Source of the DNA: a virus
Length of the DNA: 40,389 nt
Virus record (IMG/VR): IMGVR_UViG_3300046559_000586
Location: 1-40,389 of that record
Strand: one strand, 5' to 3'
A model generated the notes under the pieces. The model did no database searches. It was given only the letters and a program-made list of their open reading frames with translations, and had not been told where the DNA came from. Made by a program: the position numbers and the translations under genes. Positions 4,593-37,779 of the stretch are shown here, one piece after another (the first letter of the stretch is position 1; the number at the start of each line of letters is the position of its first letter).

Positions 4593-7500
4593 TTCATCCC
4601 CTCGATTCCCTTAGGACGGCTCTGCTGGTACTTCGAAAACACTTTGAACTGCTCTGGGTCTTTGCGAATAGCTCTCCAGACATACGGCAGGATGAGCGCC
4701 TGTTCCTCCGGAGTCGCCACCATGTAGGCTTTGACGAGGTCCTTAGGGCGGACGGAACTGCCCTCTGCCATACGCACTATGTAGGGCTTATTAGCGTTCT
4801 CGAACGCTTTCTTCACGTCAGAGAAGCTCAGGTAGGATTTGCCGTTGGCATCTGGAGTCAGCGCTTGCTTCTGCAGGTCCGGGAGCTGTTCGGATTGCTG
4901 GCTTCGGATAGCACCCTCTATGGCCTGGGTAAGATGTCTCTTCGTGAGCTCTCGGGCGTCGAAGTTATAGGTTGCCCGTCTGTCCGCTGTGGAGAGCACC
5001 TTCTCTGCCTCAGTCATGTCCAGGTCGCGAGCACTCGGATTCAGAGCCAGCCCAGAAAGCCACAGTGCCTTACCAGTTGGAATGCCCTGGGACTTCATCT
5101 TCTGATAGCCAGTCACAGAGAACGGCACCGGCGCAATCGTGTGCACAGCCCTGTCAAAGAGCCCAGAGAAGCCGCTCCGGTCCGTCACCATACCGCCTTC
5201 GAATGTCCGGTTCTTCGCTGCCTCGACTCCCTTAGTAATGAAGCCAGTCTGTCCGCCAACGAGGTAGCTAGTGGTGCCTTTGAGGAGCTCGAACGGGATG
5301 TCCTTAGGGTGGCCAACACTGGCGTCCCCAAAGAACGTCCGAACGTCTCTGTTATAGAGTGGCGGGTCCACGCGGTTTGGTTTGCCACGGCTGTCGAGTC
5401 CACCGATTTGCGGTGCTTGAAAGTCCAGTGGGCTAGTCGGCGCTTTATGGGCGAAGACCTGCATAATAATAGCGCCTACGAGTGCGGTCATTCCGCCGAG
5501 CATCGTCATCAGGAGTGAGAAGTCCGGGTCCAGAGACGGCGCCCGGCGGTTCTTCACAGAGCCGACGAAGTCCGCAGCCTGGTTATAAGCGGCGTTCTTC
5601 ATGATGTTCATGATGCCGACGCGCCAGCCAGGGCTCCGGACTACCATCGCCAGAGCACTCTTAAAGCCCTTCGAGGCGTTTAGGTTATCAAAATTTAGTT
5701 CCCCGAGCGTATCATCGACACGCCTGGCTGCGGTCTGAAGGACCTTCTCCTTGGAAATCTCTCCAGACTGAATCATCGGAGCATTCCGCTTCAGCTCGAC
5801 GTTGATTTCCTTCGCAGTCGCGAAGAGCTTAATCGCTGGAATCGCTCTCTGAAACAGAGGCGACGTAAACGTCTCTAGGAGCGCCAGCGGGCCCAGGGCT
5901 GCGTTGCCGACGGTGCCACGAGCCGCACCTTCTAGGTAGTTGTGCTGCCGGAACGCCTCTAGCACGTTAAAGTTATTCTTAAGGAAGCTCTCCCGCCACT
6001 TCGTAGCATACAGTGGGTTCTGGTCGAAGCGCACACCAGCCTGAAGCATAGCCTCGACTGTGTCCTCTATGTTAGGGATAGCCGCAGAGAGGCGCTTCCC
6101 TTGGGGAGTCGCTAGAAAGTTCTGTAGGCTGTACTGGTACTTCTGCCAACCAATAATAGTCTGGCCACCGGCTTCGCGGAGTGCTCGGCCATTCTTATAG
6201 GCGAGGTACGGCTCAGCCAGGCCCTTGAAGAGCTGCCCTAGGCCCGCGACTGCCTCACTAAGGTTCCCCTGCATCATCCCAGCATTAACAGCCTGATTGA
6301 CGCCTCGGTTCACGCCCATGGCCATCGACTTCGCTACTATGCCCATTGCGTGGAACGGACCGAAGAGCTCAATCGGAGTGTAGATGTTCTTCAAGTCAAG
6401 GATGGTTTTGCCGACTACGTTCTGTCGGACAAAGTCTCTGCTGACGTGGTTCTTCAGCATCTCTAGCTCCCCACGTTGCATATAGTACGGCTGTCCCTTA
6501 AGGACTTCCATACCACCTGTAGCCGTCGGACGGGCGAACCAACTAGACACGATGTTATCTGGAACTCTGACTGGGTCCGTCAGAGTGCCGGCGTTCTTCA
6601 GAGCTTCTAGCTCCTGGCCCCCATGGGCGAGCCGCCCCTGCATCTTAATCTCAGGGAGGAGCGTTTTGTTCACGTGAATGTACTGTTGCAGACGGCCCCA
6701 GCTCAGGAGTGCCATCTCAAAGGGATTCGTTGTAGCGGGGACGCCGCCAGCTGCGATGCCATCTTCGACTGTCTCGAAGACACGCTTCCGGAGCATTCCT
6801 TTATCGCCGCTGAGCATCGCATCATTAATGACCTGGGCGGATTTCTCATGGAGCACCGCTGAGTTAGTCGGCGGCTTCTTCCAGATAGAGCCTAGGTAGT
6901 CCGTTAGGAAGTTCAGGCTTGGTCTGTAGGTGTGCGCCTCTACATACGCCTTGTCCAGGAGCTGCTGCATAATCTGGCGCTGCCCTTCGGCATCCGGCGT
7001 GTGGAGTGGCAGGCCTTTCCGCCAGCGGGTCATTGCATCAATCCCAGTTTGGTCAGGTAGATGCCGGTAGACATTCAAGCCCTCATTAAAAGCAATCCTG
7101 CCTAGGTCCTCTACGCGGTTCAGCTCACCTCTGAACTTATACATAGCGTTCTTACTTTGCTCGGAGACATCTCGGTAGGAGCCAAGCTCCGCCCAGCGCT
7201 GTGCCCAATCCAGGACATCCTTCGTAGTCACGGCTGCGTTGCTGGCGTACTTCCCGAGCTCATTCAGGATGTGCGGAATGAACGGCGGTATGACAACAAA
7301 CCCTTCCTGGCCCTTCTTAGGAATTGCTACGCCGAGCTTTCCGGTCTCCGCCCAGCGAGTCGCAGCCTGCAGAGCTGCTGGCCCATCGCCTTTGCGGAGC
7401 CCACGGTACAGCGCCTCTAAGGCACCTCCGTACCGCTTAGCGAGGAACTTCGTATCCTCGATGCCAGCCTTCTGAGCTGCTTGAATCGCTGTGTACGCTA

Positions 7501-10495
7501 GGAAGTCCCGGTCCTCAGGCACTGTGGCATCGTGCAGTTTGAGGATGTCCCCTAGCCACTTCGCTGGGACCTCTTCGCCAGCTGTAGAGCCGAGGAGCGC
7601 TAGGATGGCGTCGCCTTTGCCTTCGGCTACGCGGTTAATCGGCTCCATGAACGTCTTAGGGGCGTTCTGCCGCTCAGCCCGCTCTACCGTTCTGATAGCG
7701 CTGCTAGCTATGTTCTGGAGGTGCGCGGTGTCCTCAGCAGACTGCGGAGCCACACGTTGGAGCTGGTCAATCGTCTTGCGGACACGCTGGGCTGCTTTGG
7801 ACTGGCCGAGGCCTTTGTTCTCTAGGTTAGCTAGGTGCCTGTTTGTTGCTTGGAGTTCTTCGTGCGCTTCACCAGCGGTGAGTTCTTTGGTTGGTAGCGT
7901 AGCTGGAACGCGCATCGGCGCCTCAGCCATGAGATTGCCAGCCTCATCATATCGCTTAACAGTGACAGTCTTTTCAGCCTTAGCTGCGGCAACCGGGTGC
8001 AACTCCTCTGGCTTAATTTCCTGGGCTCTCTTAGCGAGCTTCGCCTGGATGAACTCATCGTTCCCGAGCTCACTGGCTCGCAGTGCAAAGCTGCCGCCAT
8101 CAGGATGCCGGAAGTCATGGACCTGCGTGCCAGGGGAAACCTCACCCCGATACTGGAGGCCGTACTTGTTAGCGACCATCTCTGGGGAGAGCTCTATGGA
8201 CTTCGTTGCTGGTGCCACAGCATTCTGAGGCACCTTCGCAGGCGCAGCTGGATTCTCAACGTGGTCAGACGGGAGGCCCTTACGGATAGTACTAGCGATG
8301 GTCTTAGAAAGCGCCGCTTCGTGTATCAGACGCTGGCGAATCTTGTCAATGGTCGCGTCATCAGGCTTACTCTGCTTGCTGAGCTCTGCCCGGCCTGTAG
8401 CCCCGCTGCGCTTCAGGAGCTCATTCCAGAACTGCTGCGAATCTCCAACCCCTGGGTAACGCACTACACCGTCTTCGCCGACCGTAGGCTGACTCTTTCC
8501 GGCGCGTTCATACGTAAAGCGTTTCCCTGTTGTGGCTTGGATTACATCAACGTGCTGCTGGATGTCAGCTAGCTGCTCTGGGCTTGGGTGCAAGCCGCTC
8601 TGGCGAATCTCAGCTATCTTCCCGGCCATCACACCGTGCTGCTGTGCCACGAAAGCTTTGTCCTCGTCGGAGAGCTTACGCGGTGGGATTGCCCGGCCCT
8701 CTTCGTTGCGCTCAGTCCAGCGGGTGCCCGTTGGAGCGCGGTCAGACAGTATGAAGTTTAGGACCTGCCGCTGGCTGTCGGAGACATCATATTTGTAACC
8801 GTAGCGGCTAGTGACTTTGTCGCCACCCTCTTCAGTTCCTGGCTGCACCACTGTGCGGCCCTGGGCATCAACGCCGATGTCACCGCCTTTGACTTCGGAC
8901 AAGCCGACTCTGCCATGCAGGAGCTCTGTAATCTCTGCGGCGGTGTCCTTCGAGTTCACAACTCGATTCAGCTCATCTAATTGCTGCTGGGCGGCCACAC
9001 TGCGCCGGTCCATACTAGCAGCGAGTTTCTCCTGCTCTGGGACAGGCTGATTCGCCATCGCAGCCACAGCTGGAACGACATCCCCAGGGCGCAATCCTTT
9101 GAGGGCCCGGTTCAGTGTGATGTGGACGTTCTCGCTCGGAGTCGCTGGTGGTTGCACAGAGACTGGCCCAGAAATCCGCTTCATAGCGGCCCTGGCCGCT
9201 AGCCAGTCATCTCTCTTCAGCCCGGCTGCTAGGGCGTCCTTTTGATTCAGACTTGCAATCTGTTGGAGTTGTTCCTGTGGGAGGTCCTTTGGACGATTCG
9301 TCGCAGTTATACCTTTTGCAATATCTTGAACAGAGGGCGGTGCTAGAGGAGCAGTACGCGGCAATGCGGCTCCAAGCTCTTCAAGCTGTTTTGCAGCGTA
9401 CGCCTGGTCTTCGGGAGTCGCAGCTGGATGCGCTTGAATCGCCTTCGCCCGAGAAATCATTTCGTCTCGCTGAGCCGCTGCGAATTCCGGCGTGGTTGCT
9501 CGAACCGTAGCGAGCTTCGCTTCTTTAGGCCCGATAGTGCTCTCGGGAGTACTAGGTGTCGGAGTCGCCGCAGGCGTTACAGGTGTGCCAGCAGGAGATG
9601 CACTCTCTGGCAGTTGTGGAGCTCTCGGGGGCATCGGCGTAGCGCCCGGAGGTTCCATCCCCGGCACAGCCTTAGCCATCATGCTGCGCCCAGCACCTCG
9701 GTAGCCCATTACGTCCCCGGCCATACCAACGGAGCCCTGCATAAATTGCACAAGGCCGGCTATCTTCTCTGCGTCGTCTCTGCCAGTAACAGCCTGGTAT
9801 GCGCCCTGGCCTGCGAAGCCAGCGGACACAGTGCCGCGAGCTGCGGCAGTTCCTTGAAGAACTTGCTTAGCTCTGATTGCGGTCTGTAGGCTGGCGTGTG
9901 CGTCAGCTGCGTGCTGAACTGCGGCTGCAGTCTCTCCTGCGGCCTCCGCCCCACGGCTCAGGTTCATAGAGCTTCGGACTGCCTGGAGTGCTTCAGCTCC
10001 GGTCTTAAGGAGCTTAGCCTCAGCGAGTGGCAAGAGGTTCATCACAGCGCCACCAGGTGTGGCGAAGTTCCCAGCAGCTAGCTGGGTTCCGGATTCCGCA
10101 ACCCCAGCCTGGAATGCCTGCCACTGCGTCTTCGGCAGCGCAGGATTCTGGAGATAACTCTCGAACTGACTTGGGTCCGTGATGCCACCACCTTCAGCTC
10201 TAGAGAGGATAGTCTCCATGCCGCGCTGGGCACCGCTGCTAGGAGTGAAGACACCCCCAGGGCGATTCCCCGGTGCGGCTGACTGCATCGCAACCTGCTG
10301 TTGGGCGGACTTCTCCGGACCGCCACCCCGAGCCACAACTGGCTGGATAGCATCCCAGAGGCGCCCTACCTTAGCGGTATCAAAGTTCCCAGAGACAGCC
10401 CCCGTACGAATCTGGTACGTCGCTGTGTGGAGCTGTTGGAGCTGCTCCGGGCTGAGTGCGCTGAGTGCTGCGCCGAGCTTATCGTCATCTGGCAT
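4589..10495 (-). CDS. Giant internal virion / DNA-ejection protein (1968 aa)
   Basis: The largest non-fibre gene, in the place of podovirus ejection proteins (T7 gp14-16, N4 vRNAP). The N-terminal ~290 residues are Ala/Gln-rich helical, followed by a Pro/Thr-rich linker at ~290-330. Long helical segments run through the middle, and residues ~1100-1600 look like a conserved globular part. A clear hydrophobic segment (LLMTMLGGMTALVGAIIMQV) lies at ~1660-1685, with ~280 residues after it. The overall character resembles the large polyvalent proteins of phages. I see no transglycosylase, peptidase or RNA polymerase signature. It starts at ATG 10495, directly after the upstream stop. Likely packaged and injected with the genome. 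Confidence 0.7.
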   Translation of the reverse strand: MPDDDKLGAALSALSPEQLQQLHTATYQIRTGAVSGNFDTAKVGRLWDAIQPVVARGGGPEKSAQQQVAMQSAAPGNRPGGVFTPSSGAQRGMETILSRAEGGGITDPSQFESYLQNPALPKTQWQAFQAGVAESGTQLAAGNFATPGGAVMNLLPLAEAKLLKTGAEALQAVRSSMNLSRGAEAAGETAAAVQHAADAHASLQTAIRAKQVLQGTAAARGTVSAGFAGQGAYQAVTGRDDAEKIAGLVQFMQGSVGMAGDVMGYRGAGRSMMAKAVPGMEPPGATPMPPRAPQLPESASPAGTPVTPAATPTPSTPESTIGPKEAKLATVRATTPEFAAAQRDEMISRAKAIQAHPAATPEDQAYAAKQLEELGAALPRTAPLAPPSVQDIAKGITATNRPKDLPQEQLQQIASLNQKDALAAGLKRDDWLAARAAMKRISGPVSVQPPATPSENVHITLNRALKGLRPGDVVPAVAAMANQPVPEQEKLAASMDRRSVAAQQQLDELNRVVNSKDTAAEITELLHGRVGLSEVKGGDIGVDAQGRTVVQPGTEEGGDKVTSRYGYKYDVSDSQRQVLNFILSDRAPTGTRWTERNEEGRAIPPRKLSDEDKAFVAQQHGVMAGKIAEIRQSGLHPSPEQLADIQQHVDVIQATTGKRFTYERAGKSQPTVGEDGVVRYPGVGDSQQFWNELLKRSGATGRAELSKQSKPDDATIDKIRQRLIHEAALSKTIASTIRKGLPSDHVENPAAPAKVPQNAVAPATKSIELSPEMVANKYGLQYRGEVSPGTQVHDFRHPDGGSFALRASELGNDEFIQAKLAKRAQEIKPEELHPVAAAKAEKTVTVKRYDEAGNLMAEAPMRVPATLPTKELTAGEAHEELQATNRHLANLENKGLGQSKAAQRVRKTIDQLQRVAPQSAEDTAHLQNIASSAIRTVERAERQNAPKTFMEPINRVAEGKGDAILALLGSTAGEEVPAKWLGDILKLHDATVPEDRDFLAYTAIQAAQKAGIEDTKFLAKRYGGALEALYRGLRKGDGPAALQAATRWAETGKLGVAIPKKGQEGFVVIPPFIPHILNELGKYASNAAVTTKDVLDWAQRWAELGSYRDVSEQSKNAMYKFRGELNRVEDLGRIAFNEGLNVYRHLPDQTGIDAMTRWRKGLPLHTPDAEGQRQIMQQLLDKAYVEAHTYRPSLNFLTDYLGSIWKKPPTNSAVLHEKSAQVINDAMLSGDKGMLRKRVFETVEDGIAAGGVPATTNPFEMALLSWGRLQQYIHVNKTLLPEIKMQGRLAHGGQELEALKNAGTLTDPVRVPDNIVSSWFARPTATGGMEVLKGQPYYMQRGELEMLKNHVSRDFVRQNVVGKTILDLKNIYTPIELFGPFHAMGIVAKSMAMGVNRGVNQAVNAGMMQGNLSEAVAGLGQLFKGLAEPYLAYKNGRALREAGGQTIIGWQKYQYSLQNFLATPQGKRLSAAIPNIEDTVEAMLQAGVRFDQNPLYATKWRESFLKNNFNVLEAFRQHNYLEGAARGTVGNAALGPLALLETFTSPLFQRAIPAIKLFATAKEINVELKRNAPMIQSGEISKEKVLQTAARRVDDTLGELNFDNLNASKGFKSALAMVVRSPGWRVGIMNIMKNAAYNQAADFVGSVKNRRAPSLDPDFSLLMTMLGGMTALVGAIIMQVFAHKAPTSPLDFQAPQIGGLDSRGKPNRVDPPLYNRDVRTFFGDASVGHPKDIPFELLKGTTSYLVGGQTGFITKGVEAAKNRTFEGGMVTDRSGFSGLFDRAVHTIAPVPFSVTGYQKMKSQGIPTGKALWLSGLALNPSARDLDMTEAEKVLSTADRRATYNFDARELTKRHLTQAIEGAIRSQQSEQLPDLQKQALTPDANGKSYLSFSDVKKAFENANKPYIVRMAEGSSVRPKDLVKAYMVATPEEQALILPYVWRAIRKDPEQFKVFSKYQQSRPKGIEGMN

Positions 10496-12919: not shown

Positions 12920-13408
12920 CTAGAAGTTCTTGAAGCGTTCTCCGTTTAGACCCTGGGCATTCGGAACGCTGCCACCGCCACCCAGAGTGCCAGTCTGCCC
13001 GCCTGTGCCTGTGAAGAACTGACACAGCACCAGGACGTTCTCTACCTTAGTCAGTTGGTCTAAATTTGTGTTGAAGCTCATCGTGAGGTGCACTGGGTTC
13101 CAGCCAGCCCAGTAGAACGTGTTCGGTAGGGCGACTTGGCTACCCGCAGGAATCGGGTCGTAATGCCCTTGGTGGTCTTTTACGTAGGCAGCAGCCCAGC
13201 TAATCGTAAGTGTGCCGCCTGTCCAGACGAATGCTATGTTGTTCTGGTTCTGGACTCCGTTTGTCTTGGACTCCACAGCAGAGTGACTAGAGAGGTTATT
13301 CAGCTTCAGCTCTAAGTCTCTGAAGCGGCGCTCATGCTCATCCAGCCGCGTTAGCTCGCTGTTGAGCTTCGGCAAGTCCCTCTGGACATCTGTTATAGTA
13401 AGTGCCAT
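12920..13408 (-). CDS. Putative tail-associated protein with N-terminal coiled coil (162 aa)
   Basis: An N-terminal helix of ~45 residues (LPKLNSELTRLDEHERRFRD... LELKLNNLSS) has coiled-coil character, suggesting a trimer. It is followed by an Asn-rich linker and a beta-rich domain (residues ~55-140), then a Gly-rich tail ending NGERFKNF. This plan, coiled coil plus small beta domain, fits a minor tail, whisker or needle protein. The ATG at 13408 overlaps the stop of the 836-residue tail protein as TGATG, so translation is coupled. No family is assigned. Confidence 0.65.
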   Translation of the reverse strand: MALTITDVQRDLPKLNSELTRLDEHERRFRDLELKLNNLSSHSAVESKTNGVQNQNNIAFVWTGGTLTISWAAAYVKDHQGHYDPIPAGSQVALPNTFYWAGWNPVHLTMSFNTNLDQLTKVENVLVLCQFFTGTGGQTGTLGGGGSVPNAQGLNGERFKNF

Positions 13409-15918
13409 CAGAGTCTGTTAAGGATGCGCCCTTGGACGTTGAAGCTCCGGAGCAGGTCCGTCGCCGCATCCGTAGCGTTGAATGTGAAGCGGTAGTAGCG
13501 CTCACGAGTCGTGCTGCCCGCTAAGTACACTACGAGTTCTCCTCGGGGCTTAATCACCAGCGGTGCATTCAGCACGACTAGCTGCGGGTTGTTGAACTCT
13601 GAGATTAAGCTTGCGCCCTCTACAGTCAAAGTCATGCCTTGGTCTGCGGTGGAAATCTCTGCCTCATTCAGGAGCTTCCTGGCTGTCCCATCGCCGAGTG
13701 CGAGCCAACTCGTCCGCATAGTGACTGGAAAGCTCTGGGGCGTATCCCCTACGCGGTCCTGGAACAAGCTCGGGTCGAACACATAGAGTTTGCCTGTGGC
13801 CGCCTGGATGACAAACTGTGGCTGCCCAGCTAGAGTGACCCACCAGAAACCGGAGACAGCAGTATCCGTCAGACTCCACGTATACCACTTCCGGCCCTTG
13901 ATGTCAAAGACCAGCAGTGTATCTGGCTGCGTATTCGAACCAGTCGGGACCGCTAGGACCCACAGGTTAAACACAGAGATGTTGACGTTCGCTGCCCACG
14001 CAGTCACAGGGGCTGCAGTTCTGTTGATACTGTCTAGGATGTTCTGAATTGGTGTGCCGACATCTTGGTAGGTGTTAAAGTCGCTGCCCATAACGCGGTA
14101 GTCCGGTGTCAGCCACATCGCACCTAGGGGGTTCCCCTCGATGAGTACCATACTCCAGACTTCCTGGTTCAGCACTCCTACATTGTCAAAGAGCACCTGG
14201 GGCTTCAGGAATGTATTAGGCCCGTCTCCGAAGAGCCGTACTACTCTGCGGTTCGTTCCGATGTAAAGAACCGTCCCGTCACTTAAAAGCCCCCGGCCAG
14301 TCTCCCCTAGGTTTGTGATAGGAAAGCTATTCAGCACTGGGAAGGACTCCTCGAAGCGCCCAGCTAGGATGCCCGTCGGCGTCAGGAGCTCCTCCTCAGC
14401 CTTAGAGAAGACTACATAACTCCCAGTGATACAGTACATCCGTCCACGATGAAGAGTTGGGTATTTGCAGGTTGCGGGCGGCGGCGTGTTGTCAGCAACG
14501 CCGACCTCAGTGCCGTCCGTCAGCACAGCCTGGTATTGGTTAGAGAGTAGAAGCGTTAGCTCTGGAGTGTTATCCGTGTAGGTAGTCTGAGCATTAGGAA
14601 GGTCAGCGAGCTCATACAGAGTGGTGAGGTCTCCGCCATCAGCAGTCGCTAGGAGCTTCTTCCGGTCTACCTGCGGGTCGTTTGATACTGTGATAGAGCC
14701 GAGGGAAATCTGCTGCGCTGTCAGCGGCCCGGTGGATGCGCTCGGAAGGTTCAGCCCGCTAAACGGCTGCGGCGCAACCTGGGAGTTATAGAAGGTAACC
14801 TGGTAAATTCTTCCTGAGACCAGTGTGACAGAGCCGCCAGCCGTTCCTAGAATCTGCACAGGAGGCGCATTCACAAACACTGTAATCCTAAGGTGGTCCA
14901 CAGAGAACGCCAGAGTGCTCGCCGTGCCCCCGCCTGCGTTGCTCCAGCCGCCATTCGCAAACAGCGTGGCTCCAAAGGTTGTGTCATCTACAGTACTAGA
15001 GCTCACAGAGGCGCCCCAGAGGTCCGTCGAGCCGCCACCTGAGACATACGCCAGCGCAGCTCCAGGGGTCATAGGAGCGAACTTAAAGGTCCCAATCTGG
15101 ACGCCCCCGAACGTCAGGTTCATCGTGAGCTGGACCTGGCTGGCATTCTTAGTGCCGCCAGACTCAACTACCTTAGCCTTAGCTTCTACTAGGACACCGA
15201 CTATGGTGGTCCCCGGTGTCAGGGCAAAGCCAAAATTAGTCGCGGTGATAGGCCCAGAGTTTGCGAAGGTTGTGCCAAGGCCCCCAGGGAGAACTCCTCC
15301 AGAGACTGACACAGTACTAAAGACTCCGTCTGCGACCTTAATGTTATTCGGGTTCACCCAGATAGGCGAGCCGCTCGTAGCGACTGTGCCAGGGCTGTCC
15401 GGGCCCACAGGCCCTACGGCTGCGTTGTTAATGTCAATGCCCCAGTTCCTTGTGCTGTTCCCAAGCGTAGGGCTCCACGCCTGCGGGAGCACGCCGTCTG
15501 CTACATAGAACTGGCCTCGGCTGGTCTGTCCGTGGGCGCCCGGAGCCTGCAGAGTCACTGTGTTCCCAATCGAAGAGCCATCCTCAGCCACACTGTAGAA
15601 GCCCGTGCTGGTGCTCTGGAGGAGCAGTCTAGCCGCCCCTGGGGGGTCATTATTCCAGAGATACATCGGGTAGGTACTGGTGTTCGGAGCAGCGCCCATA
15701 GGCACGCTTCCGTTAAACAACGAGTACCCCCAGCGCCGGTCAAAGTCCCCTTGCACAGGGGGCATCACATTCACGAGGCTCTCGAACATATCCTCGTTCT
15801 GGCCTGGGGGGTCAGAGAACGAATCCTGACCTGCGGCTGCGAACCTCGGGCGGATGTAGCGCCAGAGACCTCGGCTAAACTGCCCGCCCCATTCTGTTAC
15901 GATTGCGCCTTCAGGCAT
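13408..15918 (-). CDS. Large tail protein, possible nozzle / tail-tube-B-like (836 aa)
   Basis: An 836-residue beta-rich protein. The N-terminus (GGQFSRGLWRYIRPRFA... then NVMPPVQGDFDRRWGY) resembles the opening of podovirus tail-tube/stabilisation proteins that mount on the adaptor. The middle (~170-350) is a Ser/Gly/Thr-rich beta domain. The C-terminal half (~470-800) has repeated Trp/Tyr/Phe-rich strands (IKGRKWYTWSLT, GFWWVTLAGQPQFVIQ) that look propeller-like, as in nozzle proteins. It starts at ATG 15918 directly after the phosphatase stop. The function follows from position near the adaptor gene and from size; no enzymatic motif is visible. Confidence 0.6.
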   Translation of the reverse strand: MPEGAIVTEWGGQFSRGLWRYIRPRFAAAGQDSFSDPPGQNEDMFESLVNVMPPVQGDFDRRWGYSLFNGSVPMGAAPNTSTYPMYLWNNDPPGAARLLLQSTSTGFYSVAEDGSSIGNTVTLQAPGAHGQTSRGQFYVADGVLPQAWSPTLGNSTRNWGIDINNAAVGPVGPDSPGTVATSGSPIWVNPNNIKVADGVFSTVSVSGGVLPGGLGTTFANSGPITATNFGFALTPGTTIVGVLVEAKAKVVESGGTKNASQVQLTMNLTFGGVQIGTFKFAPMTPGAALAYVSGGGSTDLWGASVSSSTVDDTTFGATLFANGGWSNAGGGTASTLAFSVDHLRITVFVNAPPVQILGTAGGSVTLVSGRIYQVTFYNSQVAPQPFSGLNLPSASTGPLTAQQISLGSITVSNDPQVDRKKLLATADGGDLTTLYELADLPNAQTTYTDNTPELTLLLSNQYQAVLTDGTEVGVADNTPPPATCKYPTLHRGRMYCITGSYVVFSKAEEELLTPTGILAGRFEESFPVLNSFPITNLGETGRGLLSDGTVLYIGTNRRVVRLFGDGPNTFLKPQVLFDNVGVLNQEVWSMVLIEGNPLGAMWLTPDYRVMGSDFNTYQDVGTPIQNILDSINRTAAPVTAWAANVNISVFNLWVLAVPTGSNTQPDTLLVFDIKGRKWYTWSLTDTAVSGFWWVTLAGQPQFVIQAATGKLYVFDPSLFQDRVGDTPQSFPVTMRTSWLALGDGTARKLLNEAEISTADQGMTLTVEGASLISEFNNPQLVVLNAPLVIKPRGELVVYLAGSTTRERYYRFTFNATDAATDLLRSFNVQGRILNRL

Positions 15919-16521
15919 TTAGGAGTGCACTCCGTTAGTCCACTCTCGGTGGAACTCCAGCGTAGAGCCTGGAGGAATTTCATTCGTTTCACTGTATTCA
16001 TACGCAAAGTCATGGACATCCGGTAGGCCCTGCTTCAGCCACGAACCGCCCATCATGATGTTCTGCAGGTGCGTCACTACAAGCACAACCCCTTCTTCGG
16101 GCGCATGGTAAATAATGTCAGAGAGCGCCTTCGTGTAGCGCTCTAGGAAATCATTCATGCTCTCTCCGGCTTTGGGGGCAAGGTCTCGTCCAGCTCCAGT
16201 TGAGAGGGTTCCAAGTACATCCAGTACATCCGAAACCCGTCTGCCGTTAAGTACGCCGTAGTCCCAAGAGCGGAGCTCTGGTAGCTTCGTAACTGTGAGA
16301 CCGTATTCGTGGGCAATAGCGGTTGCAAGGATACTGGCCCGTTCAAGGGAACTACTGTAGACGGCTTTGACATCCTTGTGTTTCTCCTTGAGGCGCCCAA
16401 CGACCTCAGGTATCTGGGCGAATCCCTCAGCGCTCAACGGCACATCAATACAGCCTCTGAGCCGTACTGGCTCACTATTAAAAGCAGTCTTTGTGTGCCG
16501 CAGAAACAGTAAGCGTTTTAT
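15919..16521 (-). CDS. Histidine phosphatase superfamily protein, non-canonical (AUA) start proposed
   Basis: A 200-residue branch-1 histidine phosphatase (phosphoglycerate mutase-like). Read from 16521 it begins IKRLLFLRHTKTAFN, giving the catalytic R8-H9-T10 motif. RLRGCIDVPLSAEG follows, then SSSLERASILATA, LRSWDYG, AGES and a second catalytic His in VVVTHLQN. The first canonical start, GTG 16443, would remove the catalytic His. The frame has no ATG, GTG or TTG between its upstream stop and that GTG. The candidate starts are ATA 16521, whose ATAA overlaps the adaptor stop, or CTG 16509. Coupling to the adaptor gene suggests expression with tail proteins. The substrate is unknown. Confidence 0.8.
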   Translation of the reverse strand: MKRLLFLRHTKTAFNSEPVRLRGCIDVPLSAEGFAQIPEVVGRLKEKHKDVKAVYSSSLERASILATAIAHEYGLTVTKLPELRSWDYGVLNGRRVSDVLDVLGTLSTGAGRDLAPKAGESMNDFLERYTKALSDIIYHAPEEGVVLVVTHLQNIMMGGSWLKQGLPDVHDFAYEYSETNEIPPGSTLEFHREWTNGVHS

Positions 16522-17354
16522 GGTATGCTCGTCTCTAGGCCGGAGTCGAGTCCGATGCCTGTAGTTGTCTGGCGCGTCACAGCACTCGGGTCAGGCCGCA
16601 CGAACTCTTCGCCACGCGGGAACAAGTTCATGTCCTTGATAATCTGAGTCTTGCCAGACATATAGAGCTCTTTGTACGCGAGGACATCCTCAGGGTAGCT
16701 CTTCAGATACTGGTACGTCAGCCAGGTCACACCATGGCAGACAATGTCTTTGTAGCGGTCCGGAACCTGAATCGTCTGTCCTAGGTTCGTCAGGATGTTC
16801 CGAGTCTGGTAATACCGGAACTGGATGTTGTAGGAGCCATCCGGAGGCGGCCACAACGTGATGACGTTTGGCACATCCGAGAGCACCTGCCAGATACGGG
16901 GCTTAGCCGGCAGCGTGAACTCCTGAGACACAGGCTGTAGCTCGGAGACCGCTAAGCGCTTAAAGTTTGAATAGTCTATGACTGTATCTCTCTTAATGCT
17001 GTCGAAGTCACTAAGGTCGAGGCCGGTGTCGATGGTGCCGACGGGAGCTGCGCCAGTCAGGCCAACCCAGTACTGGTTGTTGAACGGTGTGACTCCTTGT
17101 GGAGTGGCGACTGTGTTAAAGCCCACAGGCCCCGCAATCAGGAAGGTGTAGCGGCTGTGCCGTAGGAGGTCCAAGGAGATTCTGTTTGTGTAGTCAATCA
17201 GAATGTTCGTGTCGCTAGCGCCTACGTTAGGGTTGTTCGGGTCTACGACCTTCCGAACATCCAAGCTGACACAGGCTGCGATGTCGCGGACTGTGGTTGT
17301 GGAGTCACTGCCGGGGGTGGAGATTCCTGCCCCTAATTGCTGTAGTATAGTCAT
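16518..17354 (-). CDS. Head-tail adaptor (tail tube protein A / SU10-adaptor-like)
   Basis: A 278-residue protein with the plan of podovirus adaptors that form a dodecameric ring below the portal. The N-terminal helical region (DTNILIDYTNRISLDLLRHSRY) is typical of the adaptor helices. A beta-rich insertion follows, containing the strand PRIWQVLSDV and NVITLWPPPDGSYNIQFRYY (~165-190), a pattern common to this family. A further helical portion (RYKDIVCHGVTWLTYQYL, AYKELYMSGKTQIIKDM) comes before a flexible C-terminus. The family call is by eye. It begins at ATG 17354 after the fibre gene and ends in a TAA that overlaps the proposed phosphatase start. Confidence 0.75.
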   Translation of the reverse strand: MTILQQLGAGISTPGSDSTTTVRDIAACVSLDVRKVVDPNNPNVGASDTNILIDYTNRISLDLLRHSRYTFLIAGPVGFNTVATPQGVTPFNNQYWVGLTGAAPVGTIDTGLDLSDFDSIKRDTVIDYSNFKRLAVSELQPVSQEFTLPAKPRIWQVLSDVPNVITLWPPPDGSYNIQFRYYQTRNILTNLGQTIQVPDRYKDIVCHGVTWLTYQYLKSYPEDVLAYKELYMSGKTQIIKDMNLFPRGEEFVRPDPSAVTRQTTTGIGLDSGLETSIP

Positions 17355-20716: not shown

Positions 20717-23700
20717 TTAGGATACCACACAGAAGCTGCCGGCCTGAACAGTCACGGTGCCGGTTCCGGTTGCCGAACCCTGGACCTGCACAGTGCCAGC
20801 GTTGGCACCGTTTCGCAAGCCCATAGTGATAGTAGCGTGGAAGTTCGTGGTTGCTGTTATGCTGGTGTTGCCGGTGAGCTTAGTAGAGAACGCGCTGGCT
20901 ACGATGTCCTGCGTTGTGGAGGCAGTCGGGAACTCATCATAGCTGTAGAAGACACTCGTGGGCGACGCCGGGCCAGTGATGGTGATGTCGAGGCCGGCAG
21001 TAGCGAGTGAACCCTGGAAGTAGAGGTTACACACCAGTCCGTAGTTAGAGCTGGCTGCGACGGAGAACGCCAACCCAGTGATGTTGCTGGCGGTCGTAGT
21101 GGCATTCGTGTAGGTACTCGTGAGCATCACTCTGTTTGGAACCGGAACATCCGGTCCATTATTCAGAGTCTGATGCAGCATATGGTCAGCAGAACTGCCG
21201 TAGAGTGTGTCGTAGTTAGCGCCAGCACTCGGTCCAGTGCCCTCGTTTAGGCAGCTTCCACCGCCAGAGCCGGGGGTGCAAGTAGGTGCCGAGCTGCCCA
21301 GAGAGGCAGCCCCTAGCTGAATAGTATTCCCTGCTTTGTCAGCTTTCCACTGTGAGGTGCCACCGATTTGGGCGTCAATCAGAAGCGAGCCCGCACCAGA
21401 GGCGGTGTTAACCGCGTTGATTAAGAGAGCCGCATCCACCACACCGGAGGTGTTCCAAGTCGGTGTAATCGACACAGTCGGTTGGGTCTGCGTTCCGTTC
21501 AAGGAAGCAGACACATTCAGAGGCGTCGCAGTCGAACCTAGGATGGTCGCGATTCCGACGAGGAACTGTGCACCAGCGCCTGAGGTGGCGGCGACGTTCT
21601 CAGTAAACTTAAAGGCTGTCTTAGCTGCGGTGGTAAGTGCCCAATTCCAAGTCTGAGCGTTGTCACCGTTGTTAATCGAGTTGCTGCCTACGGCGGCTGT
21701 TATTGCACTAAGGGCACCAGAACCGCCACCCGACCCGCAAGCAGCACCCGCTGTATTCAGTGTGAGGACACCCGCAGCAAGCGTCCACTTCACACAGTCA
21801 TTGTTAGCTGGGGCGATGCTCGACGGGATAATCCCGACGATGTTGTCCACAGCGTTTGCGCCGGTATGGATGTTCTTGTTGGTGGTGTCGTAGCTTAGGA
21901 CGCCAGAGGTCGTGGAGCTTGCGCCAGCGACGTTCGGCACCCTAAGGGCCGCCGCACTCGTCGAGGCACTCATATCGAGTGTCATCGCAGCAGTGCCGGT
22001 GTTCGCGGCGTTGTTTAGGACTAGCGCTGTAGCTGCAATCGAGGCGTCTATGACGTTGCCACTAGCATCAAACTTAGGGATGTCTCCGCTAGTTAGAGTG
22101 CCGCTGGTTTCAGCAACTACTCCGCTATTCCCACTAGACGTCAGAAGGACTGTGGTGCCGAGGGAATTCCCAAGGGAAATCCCATTCACAAAGTGCTGCG
22201 GCGCTGTCCAGCCCTGCTCTTGGTTAAGCTTAGCAAGGGAAGCGATGTTCCCGGCTTCGAAGTTATCGCCTCTGGAGAAGTTCCCAAAGATACCGATACC
22301 GGCCTTGCCACTGGTGTAGGTAGCGTCTGAAATGGGCCCTAGGGTGTTTACAAGGACTCCATTCGCAAACCGATTAACTGTGATGTTGCTGCCAACGGCG
22401 GTGATTTGGTAGTAATCCCCAACCGCAGGGGTAATCACAGTACTAGCGAGCGTCGTGGTTACAGCGTTCGCTACGCGCTTCAGGAAGAAGGTATTCGAGT
22501 TTGTGTTGATGCCACCGCAGTATCCGCTGAAGTTTGCGGTCTGCATCCTAACGCAGGCGTCAACTTCCGAAGAGCCCGCTGTTATTGTGCTGAGGGTAAT
22601 AGCTGCGTATTGGTCATTCGAGAAGTTAATCGAGTTAACGTACGCGGCGTTCCAGACAGCAGCGGTGTTGCCAGCGAACTGGCCGGCGGTGATAACAACC
22701 GAGTTCGAGACGTTCGTGTAGTTACCGATGCCGTTAGAGGTGTTATCGAACCATCCGGTTGTGCAGTTAGTGGTGTACTTCTTGTTAGCATCCGTACAGA
22801 GGTAGCCCCCAGAGCTAACAGACAGGTCTGTGATACCACCCTGTATGTAAAGATTTCCGTTAGTCAGTCCAGAGCCAGTCGAAACGCCGGGGTAGTTCCC
22901 GAAAATCGTGGGCCCCATGAAGTGGTTGATGCCGTTGAACTGCTGCTCTCCAAGGGTTGTTGTGACATACGCTATGTTGTTCGGGATGGTGCCAGCGGTG
23001 AAGTTTGTCAGCGACCCGCCGTTGGCGTTGAAGAAGGTAACTCCAGGGTTGCCAGTTGGAAAGTTTGCGTCCGTATTAGAAAGAGAGGTCACTACACCCG
23101 TAGCAGACGTCACAGAACAGGTATAGTTGTTCCCAACTATAGACATCCGAATTCTGTCGCCGACAGCCGCGTTATGAGCTGTAGTAGCTTGGAACGCTTC
23201 GCCACCCGCGATTAGCCGGTAGAGTGACAGACCAGTAGCAACGTGCTGACAGAGGTAGCCTTGACCGCTCGTTGTTCCGGAGAGGCGGACTCCAACGCCA
23301 ACCTGAGCACTTCCTGCAGGTACAGAAGCGATTGTGGCTTCTGCGTACTGGTCACTAAGAAACGGAGTCGCCGTCCAGATAGAACCTGTTACTGCGTTGG
23401 TCGCACTGCCACTTATGACTGCGTTGGAAGAAATGGAGACTGTGCCGACGCCCGTCATAAACGGAGTCCAGTTAGCTCCTAGACCACCGTTTGCGCGGAA
23501 GAAGTTATCGTACGGCGAAGGCGCTAACCCAGCAGAGGTCGTCGTTGTAGTATCTAAGAGGAACGTCCCCGTAGCATCTGGAGTGGTTTGGGTCCGATTC
23601 GCTGTCATCACAGACGGCGTAATCGTGTTTGTGAAGTTATTGAGTAGTCGAAACGCCGGTGACGAGACACCCCCAGCACTTACAGCTGTTACACCACCAC

Positions 23701-26700
23701 CAGGATTGCCAGTTGGAAAGCCGCATACTGAGGCGTTACTATTCCGGATGTAGGTAGTCGAATTCCCGCCCTGGCTGTTCGGAGCGCAATTCACAACGTT
23801 GAAAGTGCTGTTTAAGCCGTTGTTCTCAGCGAAGTCATATCCGATTGCACCGGGGACCGCAGGCCAGGTCACAGTAACGGTTTGCTGGCCGCTAGAGGTT
23901 ACACAGGCGTTGGATTGAGGTCCATACACACCCTCTGAAACCCCAGCGCCGTTACGAAACGTCGGCGCGACTTTGAATATCCAGGTTTGAATCGGAGCAG
24001 AGCCGCCCGCACTAACAGAACAGGTAGGTGTGGTTTGCCCACCACCCACAAAGAATTGGAGTCCACCAGGAACGTTTACAGCAGCGTTGACGGTCCAACC
24101 AGAGTAGGTGCTCATACTGGTGTTCATAACGCCGTCTTGTGCGTTAAATACAGTAGGTGCAAAACCCGTCGTGCCATACGCCTGCGCCGGCCCAGCTCCC
24201 TGAACTGTGATACCTCCAGGTCCGTTAGAGAAGGGTTGGTTAGAGCCAACGTTAGTGAACGCGGTAATCCTAGCCAGGCCTCCCTGAGTACCGGAATAAG
24301 TGAACATCGGTGCTCCGGTTGTGTCCGCAACGACTCCGCGTAGCTCTAGACTGAGTGAGGATGAACCTCCAGTCATGAATGTGCTGACAATCGGCGTGAT
24401 GCAGCCCTCAGCGTACACCTTCTCGAAGGTGGCTTGGAGACCCTGCGGTAACATCCGGAAGTAAATCCCGCGTAGCGCTAAGAACGTGTCATAGTGCAAC
24501 TGCGGGGAAGACATCCCATCGCCGTAGAAGGATGGCGTCGTGGTAACCCCGGGTGCCTGCGAGCCCGGCCCAGTGATGAATGCACAGCTAGTAAAGATAA
24601 AGTCAGCGCCACCGTTCGAGTCCCCACGGAACAAGAACGGGATGTTCATAGTGTCGTTAGCGCCAGAGGTGATAAAGGACACATCCTTCCAGACGCTACT
24701 CGGAATACCACTGCCCTGGTCGGAAATCCAGGTATACCCCTGGTTAGGTTGTTTGTTGTTAAAGATGATGTGGTCGAAGTGCGTAATCCTAGGAGAGTAG
24801 AACATCGGACTAGCAATCGAGGACACAATGGCCGGGTAGGCTCCACGTGTGAAACTCCCAGTGCCTCCGGTCTGGTTCTGCGGCTCACCGCGCCAGTGGA
24901 TACGGGTTCCGTTAGTGCCGCCACCGAGACTGTATATCATGTCTCCAAGGTGGATTTGACCGGCTTGCTGAACGTTAACAACCCCTGACCCGCTAAGGTC
25001 GAACATCTGCAGAGCGGAGTTCGTCTCATAAACTAGGGAGTTGTTCCCTGTGGCTGGGAAGAACATCACACCGATTGAGCCGCCTGTGGTAGCTGCAGTC
25101 ATAGCAGCTGTGATGTTCGGGACGTTATCAATCTTTAGGACTGTACCGGCGACGGTGTTTGTGGCAGCGTTCGCTACAACAATGGAAGTTGTGCCTGCGC
25201 CGGAGACAATCTTAGTAACAAGGTCTCTGTTCTTAGCTGCAACCGGAGGCGTCAGAGGAACATAGTCCGGGACATCTCCAGAACCCTTGTTCAAGTTCAG
25301 CGCTGCCCCGTGGTCGTCAAAGCTGTTTGCAACCAGTGCGGGCGGACCGGGGTTACCGGAGAAGCACGCAGGGGTGCACATCGTAGAGCTCTGAATCGTA
25401 GTAACGCCTATGAGCGCCATCGAGCCAGCGGTACGTCCGTAGACGTAGTACTTAACAGCTCCAGTAACCTCAGGCCACGTGATGTGGACTGCGTTCCAGT
25501 AGTAAACCGTCGTAGTTCCGGCAAGCGGACCCGCTGCGGGCTGTCCGAACTGAATCATATCCGCGTGCTGGAAAACGAAGTGTGTGTTATCCGGAACGCT
25601 GCCGACTTTCCAGAATCCGTTGATGCTGCCGTCGTTGATGTTGACAATCTGGATGTAGGTCCCGGCGACCATCGTATGCGGGGCAGTGGTTGTTACAGTT
25701 ACGCTAGAGGAGTTCCCGCCGATAGCAGCCGACCAGGAGGAGACTGTGGCGGTCTGTGCGCCTAGGGCATTAGAGGTAGCGACTGAAGTCACAGCACTGC
25801 AAGGAGACAGACCACCGCCGATGTCAGCTGCAACAACACAGTACTGAAAGGTTGTTGCGCCTGTGGCGTTTGCTGCAGTCTGGCCCGTGCCAGTTGGCCC
25901 AGTAACAGAAGAGGGTGTCACTGTTGGTGCGGTCGGAGTAGTCAGGGTTGTGGTCGCACCCGCACCACGGCACACAATGCCGTCTCCGTTAATGAAAGAG
26001 CTCGCCGCACCCAGGGTCATCGCCGTCGAGGCCGCGTTGATAGTGCAGGTTGTCTGAGGAAGCGAGAAGACGTTCGTCGCTCTGACGCCGAACATCGTAA
26101 CATCCACAAGGGGGTTAGGGCCCTTGGTGTGGAAGTCCCGGCTCAGGTTGAAGGCGGTTCCTGTGTCGTTTGCTCCGCTGGCTCCGAAGCCACCACCACT
26201 ACGAGTTTGGACGTCACCGTTGTTGCCTGCGGGCGAGCCTCCGCCACCACTGTTACCGGAGTTCGCTATGAGGTGCCAGTTCGTGCCGTCGAACTTAAAG
26301 GTCAGCTCGTTAACAGAGTTTGCTACAGTATTAAAGACAAAGTTCGGGTCGAAGACGAAGTTCGCTGGAAAGACGAAAGTAAACCCGCCGGTGGAGTTCT
26401 CGGTGAGGGTTAAGCTAAGGAGCTGTCCGTTTACGGGCGAACCAGTGACGGTGCTACTCGTGACGTTCGCTGTGAGCGTCATAGAGTAGGAAGTATTCTT
26501 ATCTGCGTTGAAGGAAGGTGTCGAGGAGAACGCTAGCGGGGTATTCGGGAGGATTGCGCCCTGGCCGCCCATCTGGTGTTCGTTGCCAGCGTCGTCCTTC
26601 CAGTACATGAACTTATCTGGCTTACTGTAGACGTTAGCGCTGCCAGCAGCAGGGGTCGCTACAGAAGCTTGATTCTGGAAACCAACTATCTCTGTGGACC

Positions 26701-26986
26701 AGTTCTGGTCGGAGGTGCTCGCTGAGGTTATGTCACTAATCTCAACGTTGAGCTGCGTGAAGGTCGTGATTTGCGGGCTGGAGAACTTAAGGTCGTAGCG
26801 GCCATCCGCAATGAAGAAGTCAAACCGCCCGAGGTTATCTGCGACTAGCGGGTTCGCTTTAGGTGTGAAGCCCTCGTCAAAGTAGATTAAGGCTGGGGTA
26901 GTTGTGCCCGCAAGGTACACATTGATGGTGACGCCTGCGATGGCGCGTCCACGCTGATTCTGGCAAACATCATAATAATGCTTCAA
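20717..26986 (-). CDS. Giant multidomain tail fibre / tailspike (2089 aa)
   Basis: Residues 1-85 form a head-binding domain of a common phage type (YYDVCQNQRGRAIAGVTINV, later ADGRYDLKF). A beta domain (~160-245) and a Gly-rich hinge follow. DVTMFGVRA (~295) is the usual entry to a beta-helix, here with two fibronectin-like inserts (ITWPEVTGAVKYYVYG; VTWPAVPGAIGYDFAE). FFPATGNNSLVYETNSALQM and GIYFRMLPQGLQATFEKVYA belong to the helix body. Two related jelly-roll-like modules lie near ~1150-1330 and ~1410-1580 (each with DQYA and GVGVRLSG/DACVRMQT strands). Shaft repeats and a C-terminal domain of recurrent fibre type (RVMLTSTYTNATTTASNITG... GSFCVVS) end it. It starts at TTG 26986 after AAAGGG. 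Likely the main receptor-binding protein. Confidence 0.82.
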   Translation of the reverse strand: MKHYYDVCQNQRGRAIAGVTINVYLAGTTTPALIYFDEGFTPKANPLVADNLGRFDFFIADGRYDLKFSSPQITTFTQLNVEISDITSASTSDQNWSTEIVGFQNQASVATPAAGSANVYSKPDKFMYWKDDAGNEHQMGGQGAILPNTPLAFSSTPSFNADKNTSYSMTLTANVTSSTVTGSPVNGQLLSLTLTENSTGGFTFVFPANFVFDPNFVFNTVANSVNELTFKFDGTNWHLIANSGNSGGGGSPAGNNGDVQTRSGGGFGASGANDTGTAFNLSRDFHTKGPNPLVDVTMFGVRATNVFSLPQTTCTINAASTAMTLGAASSFINGDGIVCRGAGATTTLTTPTAPTVTPSSVTGPTGTGQTAANATGATTFQYCVVAADIGGGLSPCSAVTSVATSNALGAQTATVSSWSAAIGGNSSSVTVTTTAPHTMVAGTYIQIVNINDGSINGFWKVGSVPDNTHFVFQHADMIQFGQPAAGPLAGTTTVYYWNAVHITWPEVTGAVKYYVYGRTAGSMALIGVTTIQSSTMCTPACFSGNPGPPALVANSFDDHGAALNLNKGSGDVPDYVPLTPPVAAKNRDLVTKIVSGAGTTSIVVANAATNTVAGTVLKIDNVPNITAAMTAATTGGSIGVMFFPATGNNSLVYETNSALQMFDLSGSGVVNVQQAGQIHLGDMIYSLGGGTNGTRIHWRGEPQNQTGGTGSFTRGAYPAIVSSIASPMFYSPRITHFDHIIFNNKQPNQGYTWISDQGSGIPSSVWKDVSFITSGANDTMNIPFLFRGDSNGGADFIFTSCAFITGPGSQAPGVTTTPSFYGDGMSSPQLHYDTFLALRGIYFRMLPQGLQATFEKVYAEGCITPIVSTFMTGGSSSLSLELRGVVADTTGAPMFTYSGTQGGLARITAFTNVGSNQPFSNGPGGITVQGAGPAQAYGTTGFAPTVFNAQDGVMNTSMSTYSGWTVNAAVNVPGGLQFFVGGGQTTPTCSVSAGGSAPIQTWIFKVAPTFRNGAGVSEGVYGPQSNACVTSSGQQTVTVTWPAVPGAIGYDFAENNGLNSTFNVVNCAPNSQGGNSTTYIRNSNASVCGFPTGNPGGGVTAVSAGGVSSPAFRLLNNFTNTITPSVMTANRTQTTPDATGTFLLDTTTTTSAGLAPSPYDNFFRANGGLGANWTPFMTGVGTVSISSNAVISGSATNAVTGSIWTATPFLSDQYAEATIASVPAGSAQVGVGVRLSGTTSGQGYLCQHVATGLSLYRLIAGGEAFQATTAHNAAVGDRIRMSIVGNNYTCSVTSATGVVTSLSNTDANFPTGNPGVTFFNANGGSLTNFTAGTIPNNIAYVTTTLGEQQFNGINHFMGPTIFGNYPGVSTGSGLTNGNLYIQGGITDLSVSSGGYLCTDANKKYTTNCTTGWFDNTSNGIGNYTNVSNSVVITAGQFAGNTAAVWNAAYVNSINFSNDQYAAITLSTITAGSSEVDACVRMQTANFSGYCGGINTNSNTFFLKRVANAVTTTLASTVITPAVGDYYQITAVGSNITVNRFANGVLVNTLGPISDATYTSGKAGIGIFGNFSRGDNFEAGNIASLAKLNQEQGWTAPQHFVNGISLGNSLGTTVLLTSSGNSGVVAETSGTLTSGDIPKFDASGNVIDASIAATALVLNNAANTGTAAMTLDMSASTSAAALRVPNVAGASSTTSGVLSYDTTNKNIHTGANAVDNIVGIIPSSIAPANNDCVKWTLAAGVLTLNTAGAACGSGGGSGALSAITAAVGSNSINNGDNAQTWNWALTTAAKTAFKFTENVAATSGAGAQFLVGIATILGSTATPLNVSASLNGTQTQPTVSITPTWNTSGVVDAALLINAVNTASGAGSLLIDAQIGGTSQWKADKAGNTIQLGAASLGSSAPTCTPGSGGGSCLNEGTGPSAGANYDTLYGSSADHMLHQTLNNGPDVPVPNRVMLTSTYTNATTTASNITGLAFSVAASSNYGLVCNLYFQGSLATAGLDITITGPASPTSVFYSYDEFPTASTTQDIVASAFSTKLTGNTSITATTNFHATITMGLRNGANAGTVQVQGSATGTGTVTVQAGSFCVVS

Positions 26987-27005
26987 GCTGTCACCCTTTT
27001 TTAAG

Positions 27006-27446: not shown

Positions 27447-27459
27447 CTTAGTGTCCCCT

Positions 27460-27861: not shown

Positions 27862-27867
27862 TTTAGG

Positions 27868-28212
27868 TTAGTTGTTTCCTGGGACCTGGCTCAGCGAGGT
27901 CAAGTCTGCCTGCGGACGCATCAAGCGCACGTTATACGCTGCGAAGCGCGCAAGCCGCTCATTCAGGGCAGCTGCTACGTCCGGATGGACGAGGTGCTTC
28001 CCCGGCTTGAAGTCTGGCTCTGCTCCGGTTCCGTTCAGCCAGATGCCCTTGAAAACGTAATCGTAGGGGTCCTTGCTGGGGATTTCGACCCACTGGAAAC
28101 CCGCTTCGAGCTTCTCAGCTTCGCTGGCTGTCTTCCAGTTAGCGGAGTTGTAGGGCTGCACTACAGCGTCCTTTGCTGTGGGTGTCTTAGAGAGTGCGTC
28201 AGTCGTTGCCAT
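27868..28212 (-). CDS. Hypothetical protein, 114 aa, between phosphatase and endolysin
   Basis: I do not recognise it. It is soluble, with an N-terminal polar stretch, the Trp/Tyr-rich sequence FQWVEIPSKDPYDYVFKGIW (~38-57), and a basic helix (AAALNERLARFAAYNVRLMR). There is no membrane segment or Cys. The ATG at 28212 overlaps the stop of the histidine phosphatase gene (TAATG), so it is translated with it, and it ends just before the endolysin. A virion accessory or lysis-related role is equally possible. Confidence 0.75.
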   Translation of the reverse strand: MATTDALSKTPTAKDAVVQPYNSANWKTASEAEKLEAGFQWVEIPSKDPYDYVFKGIWLNGTGAEPDFKPGKHLVHPDVAAALNERLARFAAYNVRLMRPQADLTSLSQVPGNN

Positions 28213-28934
28213 TAAATATCCTTCTGCAGGTGCCCGTTGTCGTACGGTATCTGGACAATCCTGCCATTCTGTATTGAGAGGGCCATCACCCCGCTTGGCG
28301 GTACGCTGCTAGCTTGGATGAGTGCCTTTGGGTCCTTCTTACCACTGAGCCATGCTTCAAGGGTGGCGATGTTACGGCTGTGGGTAACGCCGGCTACTAC
28401 GCCACTCGGGCTGCTCATAGCCCGTTGAACTAAATCCTGGAATCCGCTGCGCCAGCGGTTCTCGAACTCACTGAAGGATTCCCCACCGGGGACCTTCGAG
28501 TTTGGCGCTTTAACATGCCCTTCGAGGTCATCTTTGACGTCTGAAAGCTTCATCCCTGTGTACTCACCGTAGTTCCAGTCGCGGAGACCACGATTGCTCT
28601 CGACGGGTGCGAACCACTGATTTCCTAGAACTTCGGCTGTCTGCTCAGCTCTAGTAAGGTCACTGCTAACCACTTCTGAAACTGGGAGGTTTGAGAGAGC
28701 TGAAGCAGTACGTAGAGTATCAGCTCGGCCCTTCTCGCTAACGTCCACATCCGCCCACCCACGAACTCTATTAGACTTATTAAGGTCTGTTTCGCCATGG
28801 CGGATTAGGAGCACTGTAGGGAAGTTCTGTTGAGACTGCGAGGGCGCACTGGGCTGTGCGCCCCCTTGGTCAGGAGACTGACTAGAAGAATCACTCCGCG
28901 AAGCGGTGCCCGTGAAATTCCTAGTCTCACTCAT
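28212..28934 (-). CDS. Histidine phosphatase superfamily protein following the capsid gene
   Basis: A 240-residue branch-1 histidine phosphatase. An N-terminal Ser/Gln/Pro-rich linker (residues ~1-38) precedes VLLIRHGETDLN with R45-H46-G47. RVRGWADVDVSEKG, SSDLTRAEQTAEVLG, LRDWNYGEYTG, GGESFSEFENRW and the second catalytic His in VAGVTHSRN follow. The catalytic core looks intact. The LRDWNYG and SDVKDDL motifs parallel those of the phosphatase at 15919-16521, suggesting paralogy. Its ATG overlaps the capsid stop (TAATG), so it is translated from the capsid message, unusual for an enzyme. The disordered leader could tether it to virions. The substrate is unknown. Confidence 0.9.
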   Translation of the reverse strand: MSETRNFTGTASRSDSSSQSPDQGGAQPSAPSQSQQNFPTVLLIRHGETDLNKSNRVRGWADVDVSEKGRADTLRTASALSNLPVSEVVSSDLTRAEQTAEVLGNQWFAPVESNRGLRDWNYGEYTGMKLSDVKDDLEGHVKAPNSKVPGGESFSEFENRWRSGFQDLVQRAMSSPSGVVAGVTHSRNIATLEAWLSGKKDPKALIQASSVPPSGVMALSIQNGRIVQIPYDNGHLQKDI

Positions 28935-29950: not shown

Positions 29951-29965
29951 TTGCTTCCTCTTGGA

Positions 29966-29987
29966 AAGAAACCCGTCAGGGTTTCTT
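29966..29987 (-). promoter_or_regulatory. 9-bp hairpin in the scaffold-capsid junction
   Basis: On the minus strand AAGAAACCC-TGAC-GGGTTTCTT is a perfect 9-bp stem with a four-base loop, followed by TCC. Its 5' base overlaps the scaffold stop codon, and it ends about 15 bases before the capsid ATG, just upstream of the SD. It lacks a strong T-run, so it is more likely a leaky attenuator or an mRNA processing/stability element than a full terminator. Placement ahead of the most abundant virion protein suggests it helps set the capsid-to-scaffold expression ratio (inference). Confidence 0.6.
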
Positions 29988-30855: not shown

Positions 30856-30858
30856 TCT

Positions 30859-33958: not shown

Positions 33959-33966
33959 CTTCCCTC

Positions 33967-34266: not shown

Positions 34267-34271
34267 GTTGG

Positions 34272-37773: not shown

Positions 37774-37779
37774 ATGTTT

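Follow-up and report, generated by a model that had tools for sequence, protein, structure and literature searches.

Gene order and reading frames at the junction

The stretch of viral DNA analysed here (40,389 nt in full, hereafter the window) carries on its minus strand a head–tail adaptor gene, a histidine phosphatase gene (phosphatase A) and a gene for an 836-aa protein, in this 5′ to 3′ order, together with a second histidine phosphatase gene elsewhere (phosphatase B; Table 1). The same strand encodes two very large proteins of 2089 and 1968 aa (20717–26986 and 4589–10495) with no Pfam match.

Table 1. Features of the phosphatase A locus and of the other phosphatase genes discussed.
Feature	Position	Strand	Description	Evidence
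SU10-type head–tail adaptor gene (upstream)	16518..17354	−	Ends ...GLETSIP-TAA; 4-nt overlap with phosphatase A	PF24175, 36 bits; C-terminus and TAA common to L157 and L016
Histidine phosphatase A (branch 1)	15919..16521	−	200 codons counted from ATA 16521; catalytic R8, H9, R61, H151	Translation, PF00300, L001 ortholog, structure model
Presumed initiation codon ATA	16519..16521	−	Final base of CCA, the adaptor's last Pro codon, joined to the first two bases of TAA	Sequence, aligned GTG of L001, similarity boundary
Phosphatase A codons 2–26, 5′ of the first canonical start	16444..16518	−	Beta-1 plus R8-H9, N15, R22	L001 comparison, model, homologue alignment
GTG, first canonical in-frame start (residue V27)	16441..16443	−	Product without the catalytic N-terminus	ORF list, alignment
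Stretch 5′ of the ATA	16522..16543	−	No good Shine-Dalgarno sequence; best duplex −2.9 kcal/mol, CCTAGAGA	
836-aa gene (downstream)	13408..15918	−	L157 homologue lies at the adaptor stop	Weak match to PHROG 511, internal virion protein
Histidine phosphatase B	28212..28934	−	Canonical ATG; directly behind the major capsid gene	PF00300, 119 bits
Capsid-adjacent histidine phosphatase of L010	L010:4181-4818	+	Candidate CUG start, CTG 4195, giving (M)DTNTPLLLLARHGET	

Read directly on the minus strand, the junction runs ...GAG CAT ACC ATA AAA CGC TTA CTG TTT CTG CGG CAC ACA... in the phosphatase frame and ...GAG ACG AGC ATA CCA TAA in the adaptor frame, with the ATA at 16521–16519 and the adaptor stop TAA at 16520–16518 (4-nt overlap, ATAA). 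No stop interrupts the phosphatase frame between an in-frame TGA (16593–16591) and its own TAA (15921–15919), and ahead of the GTG at 16443 this open stretch contains no ATG, GTG or TTG. When the codons upstream of this GTG were included, the protein matched PF00300 at 93.5 bits from profile position 1, as against 73.4 bits from profile position 23 when it was read from the GTG. Neither the first conserved codon of phosphatase A nor any codon 5′ of it in the open frame is a canonical start, the pattern expected of a gene with an AUA start. An earlier note on this DNA had claimed that the frame extends 5′ of GTG 16443 to encode the catalytic N-terminus, that no ATG, GTG or TTG separates the upstream in-frame stop from that GTG, and that the ATA shares bases with the adaptor's TAA, all of which was borne out. 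Its description of ATGA overlaps as the usage elsewhere in this phage stood in part: one other junction has such an overlap (35695–35698), whereas 1-nt TAATG or TGATG overlaps are commoner (four).

Protein-level selection upstream of the first canonical start

Searches for orthologs of phosphatase A returned a single one among viral contigs (L001:3001–3609, 59% identical, on a 64-kb contig) and none in genome contigs or phage records. This ortholog begins with GTG at the codon aligned to the ATA and overlaps the preceding gene's stop by 4 nt (GTGA). The earlier note had named ATA 16521–16519 as the natural first codon and proposed comparing homologues for an ATG there; the sole ortholog found has a recognised start at exactly that codon, GTG rather than ATG, which supports the choice.

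Over codons 2–26, 18 of the 25 residues are identical between the two proteins, and 16 of these 18 are specified by different, synonymous codons; differences fall 10/2/20 over the three codon positions, and shifted-frame controls across the same region gave only 3 and 5 identities. By comparison, the 25 codons 5′ of the ATA share one residue with L001, and similarity ends exactly at the ATA. Because the identities are made through synonymous codons and stop at this point, the codons between the ATA and GTG 16443 are read as coding. At the level of sequence, the comparison shows that codons 2–26 bear the signature of protein-level selection, with its boundary at the ATA. The virus carrying the ortholog is otherwise different from this phage and encodes two histidine phosphatases (L001:3001–3609 and 4321–4923), near DNA polymerase and exonuclease genes.

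The abrupt boundary also bears on a possible adaptor–phosphatase fusion through −1 frameshifting ahead of the adaptor stop. The phosphatase frame does stay open for 23 codons 5′ of the ATA, as a fusion would need, but no slippery heptamer occurs near the junction (AGC ATA CCA TAA), the upstream in-frame codons match L001 at 1 of 25 positions and the gene 5′ of the L001 ortholog is an exonuclease, so that we regard a fusion as very improbable.

Residues R8, H9, N15, R22, R61 and H151 are invariant in an alignment of 14 phage homologues. An AlphaFold2 model of phosphatase A (mean pLDDT 89.6) places beta-1 at residues 2–8, and its closest solved folds are glucosyl-3-phosphoglycerate phosphatase and then other histidine phosphatases. 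The truncated product that, according to the earlier note, automatic annotation would call from the first canonical start would lack R8, H9, N15 and R22 and would presumably be inactive. That a shorter, functional protein is made from GTG 16443 therefore seems scarcely conceivable: this is indeed the first canonical start, but its product would be without four invariant residues, and the codons 5′ of it are under coding constraint. Translation from the ATA is the best available reading of the start, with initiation there being a prediction from sequence.

Enzyme family and the second phosphatase

The PF00300 score of phosphatase A (93.5 bits) lies well above the gathering cut-off of 21.7, and the protein has the catalytic layout of branch 1 of the histidine phosphatase superfamily, with R-H ending beta-1, a second Arg (R61) and a second His (H151). 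It resembles branch 1 (PF00300) and phrog_12933 in its full domain and catalytic R-H-R-H, and differs in having RHT where the usual branch 1 motif is RHG. Structural matches include glucosyl-3-phosphoglycerate phosphatase, CobC and PhoE. A named enzyme identity was rejected, as phosphatase A scores below the cut-off of every NCBIfam equivalog, including that of the alpha-ribazole phosphatase CobC (TIGR03162; 72 bits against 162.9). A PADLOC search with phosphatase A gave no match.

Phosphatases A and B are approximately 30% identical in alignment, and the ATG of B overlaps the upstream stop without a Shine-Dalgarno (SD) sequence. Related phages, none of which carries phosphatase A, seldom encode more than one phosphatase, and theirs is of a different type. 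Of 50 viral records related by their capsid, many of them fragments, 24 carried exactly one PF00300 gene.

Candidate non-canonical starts in related phages

Among 39 phosphatases from the window and related phages, a canonical start was absent only from phosphatase A and from the B-type phosphatase of L010, a related phage whose portal is 79% identical. The L010 gene has no ATG, GTG or TTG ahead of its RH motif, and its candidate CTG 4195 stands 8 nt behind a perfect SD, AGGAGG (4181–4186). A comparative relaxed-start scan of the genes of the window and its relatives likewise left only these two as clear cases; unfiltered, the scan was dominated by antisense frames. Two candidate non-canonical starts in one gene family are suggestive, and may be coincidence. 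As a family trait, non-canonical initiation was rejected at 2 of 39. A further apparent missing-start case in the window, at 33397–33738, was discarded when GTG 33720 was recognised as its start; the gene (33397–33720, minus strand) encodes a small protein with hydrophobic stretches and shares approximately 130 nt, out of frame, with the 3′ end of the gene before it (33590–33958, minus strand).

The L010 case lends some interest to initiation at CTG 16509 (MFLRHT...) or CTG 16503 in place of the ATA. Both codons are in frame, and CTG is the best candidate in L010, where a perfect SD precedes it. No SD stands ahead of CTG in phosphatase A, however; a start at CTG 16509 (residue 5) would lose residues 1–4 and with them half of the modelled beta-1 strand, and similarity to L001 takes in K2, R3 and L4. 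Initiation at CTG, including the CTG 16509 put forward by the earlier note as an alternative, is accordingly disfavoured and in our view highly unlikely.

Origin of the ATA at the adaptor stop

In L157, which belongs to a phage with an 82% identical capsid (L056), the adaptor ends ...GLDSGLETSIP followed by TAATG, the ATG of which starts a homologue of the 836-aa gene. In L016 a second adaptor closes with ...GLDSGIETSIP-TAA, and the gene behind it is a different one. In both, CCA or CCC precedes the TAA, and no phosphatase gene lies at the adaptor stop. Across 35 scored adaptor rows, some of which are overlapping loci from one record, the stop is TAA in 25, TAG in 9 and TGA in 1. One adaptor homologue, in L156 (a 70-kb record), has a single in-frame TAG, which may point to a reassigned stop codon, to fusion with a neighbouring gene or to gene disruption.

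The earlier note had derived the overlap from a point mutation of ATGA to ATAA. The relatives do not support this: both adaptors ending in ETSIP have TAA without the phosphatase, and TGA is found in just one of the 35 rows. Because TAA occurs in both ETSIP adaptors without this phosphatase, the adaptor TAA looks older than phosphatase A, and a TAA right behind the final Pro codon seems to be the ancestral state, a view that rests on two adaptor orthologs at 37–54% identity. Phosphatase A exactly separates the adaptor's TAA from the start ATG of the 836-aa gene, and the homologues of these two genes abut directly in L157, the nearest relative. Since the L157 and L016 adaptors keep TAA without the phosphatase, and the L157 stop abuts the next tail gene, the most likely origin of phosphatase A is an insertion at the adaptor stop, and the ATA would be a by-product of the adaptor's Pro–stop junction (CC-ATA-A). 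In L001 the ortholog sits in an unrelated neighbourhood, behind an exonuclease gene; this setting and the rarity of phosphatase A are what a mobile accessory gene would show, and they lend support to the insertion.

Recurrence of the phage and reliability of the ATA

Positions 24588–40389 are matched at 99.8–99.99% DNA identity by three short viral contigs that come from other metagenomes, so this phage recurs across samples. A host search by capsid profile across genome contigs returned no relative.

An assembly or sequencing error at 16521–16519, concealing a true ATG or GTG, has to be weighed, as only one assembly contains the ATA and no other contig covers the site: four fragments match the window, three of them at 99.8–99.99%, with none reaching 16.5 kb, and an exact-pattern scan around the start, with third codon positions left free, gave no hit. 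Set against this, independent fragments are 99.82% (L005), 99.87% (L006) and 99.99% (L008) identical to the window, an agreement that makes a random error at the ATA unlikely. Over approximately 28,700 aligned bases, the window and the near-identical assemblies show 30 differences. Moreover, the shared TAA is present in the adaptor orthologs too, and an ATG or GTG would require the adaptor to end in TGA. We therefore judge an error at this codon to be unlikely.

Predicted initiation on AUA

Natural AUA starts have been described in several bacteria. In Staphylococcus aureus, infC, ccpN and citZ use them, at approximately 10–30% of AUG where measured, and one non-canonical start of this species is reported to have a very strong extended SD motif (PMC13009471). 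In E. coli reporters ATA gives at most 1% of ATG, as Hecht 2017 is cited in PMC12864459, whereas an ATG>ATA change in rpoS reduced RpoS no more than 5-fold (PMC12864459). In group A Streptococcus emm4, ralp3 has an ATA start and is suspected to be poorly translated (PMC11238559). Ribosomes are well known to re-initiate where a stop and a start codon overlap, and an excess of IF3 is inhibitory both to non-canonical starts and to SD-less re-initiation (PMC2268962).

Phosphatase A resembles the S. aureus genes in that AUA begins an intact gene for which reduced expression is expected. Those genes, however, are backed by ribosome profiling and reporters, in a species whose initiation relies on extended SD motifs, whereas phosphatase A has a weak SD and a stop overlap, and its start is a prediction. 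At −2.9 kcal/mol its SD duplex is not a strong one that would compensate for the poor codon, something a coupled gene does not strictly need; many of the phage's other genes either carry a good SD or, like phosphatase B, lack one and begin with an ATG that overlaps the preceding stop. As in the E. coli termination–reinitiation pairs (PMC2268962), the start lies over the upstream stop in a geometry suited to coupling, the difference being that the usual 4-nt overlaps are ATGA or GTGA and this one is ATAA. The rpoS (E. coli O104:H4) and ralp3 genes are also ATA-start genes that may be poorly expressed, but they are set against ATG alleles, whereas the relatives of phosphatase A suggest insertion onto an existing stop. 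There was no sign that ATA is recoded or that another genetic code is in use, and the window has no tRNA genes.

We infer an insertion event, AUA re-initiation, a low product level and enzyme activity. An accessory histidine phosphatase gene would have entered between the adaptor and the next tail gene of a podovirus-like phage with an SU10-type portal and adaptor, its left joint falling on the adaptor stop and creating ATA from ...CCA-TAA where the donor would have had ATG or GTG. Ribosomes terminating the adaptor at UAA would most likely re-initiate one base back on the AUA, a near-cognate codon for the fMet used there, and the outcome would be a low level of full-length, catalytically complete phosphatase. 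We give slightly better than even credence to this combination of an intact accessory phosphatase inserted on the adaptor stop, AUA re-initiation and low-level full-length product; the product is probably low in level, or perhaps absent.

Its absence would be the rule if the ATA were instead a start-loss variant of a real and recently functional phosphatase, now making essentially no protein, with phosphatase B perhaps covering for it. A weak SD and an AUA predict little product (ATA at most 1% of ATG, in Hecht 2017 as given in PMC12864459), and a second phosphatase is at hand in phosphatase B. In codon fit, phosphatase A ranks among the lowest of the genes in the window, and the rate of 30 differences in ~28,700 bases makes a private change in ~105 start-codon bases not very rare (5–10%, on a rough inference). 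On the other hand, the gene has no other lesion, its 200 codons being open and its catalytic residues all intact, which speaks mildly against long-standing decay, and the S. aureus AUA starts yield 10–30% of AUG (PMC13009471). We consider start loss possible, though we lean against it.

Implications

Gene callers limited to ATG, GTG and TTG would lose the true N-terminus of phosphatase A and report a truncated, catalytically dead enzyme. As an AUA start, phosphatase A is a further example of a phenomenon already known; if AUA initiation is real, it would be a phage instance of a start codon otherwise documented in a few bacterial genes, and the literature we searched, with incomplete coverage, contained no phage case. 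It is conceivable, if rather doubtful, that phage accessory genes captured in frame onto existing stops gain AUA starts that are weak and used only by ribosomes just done with the upstream structural gene, the AUA here and the CUG in L010 then being a recurring low-dose device for phosphatases behind highly expressed structural genes. The locus itself suggests a route to a non-canonical start in which a gene is inserted onto its neighbour's stop, and not one in which an existing start is mutated.
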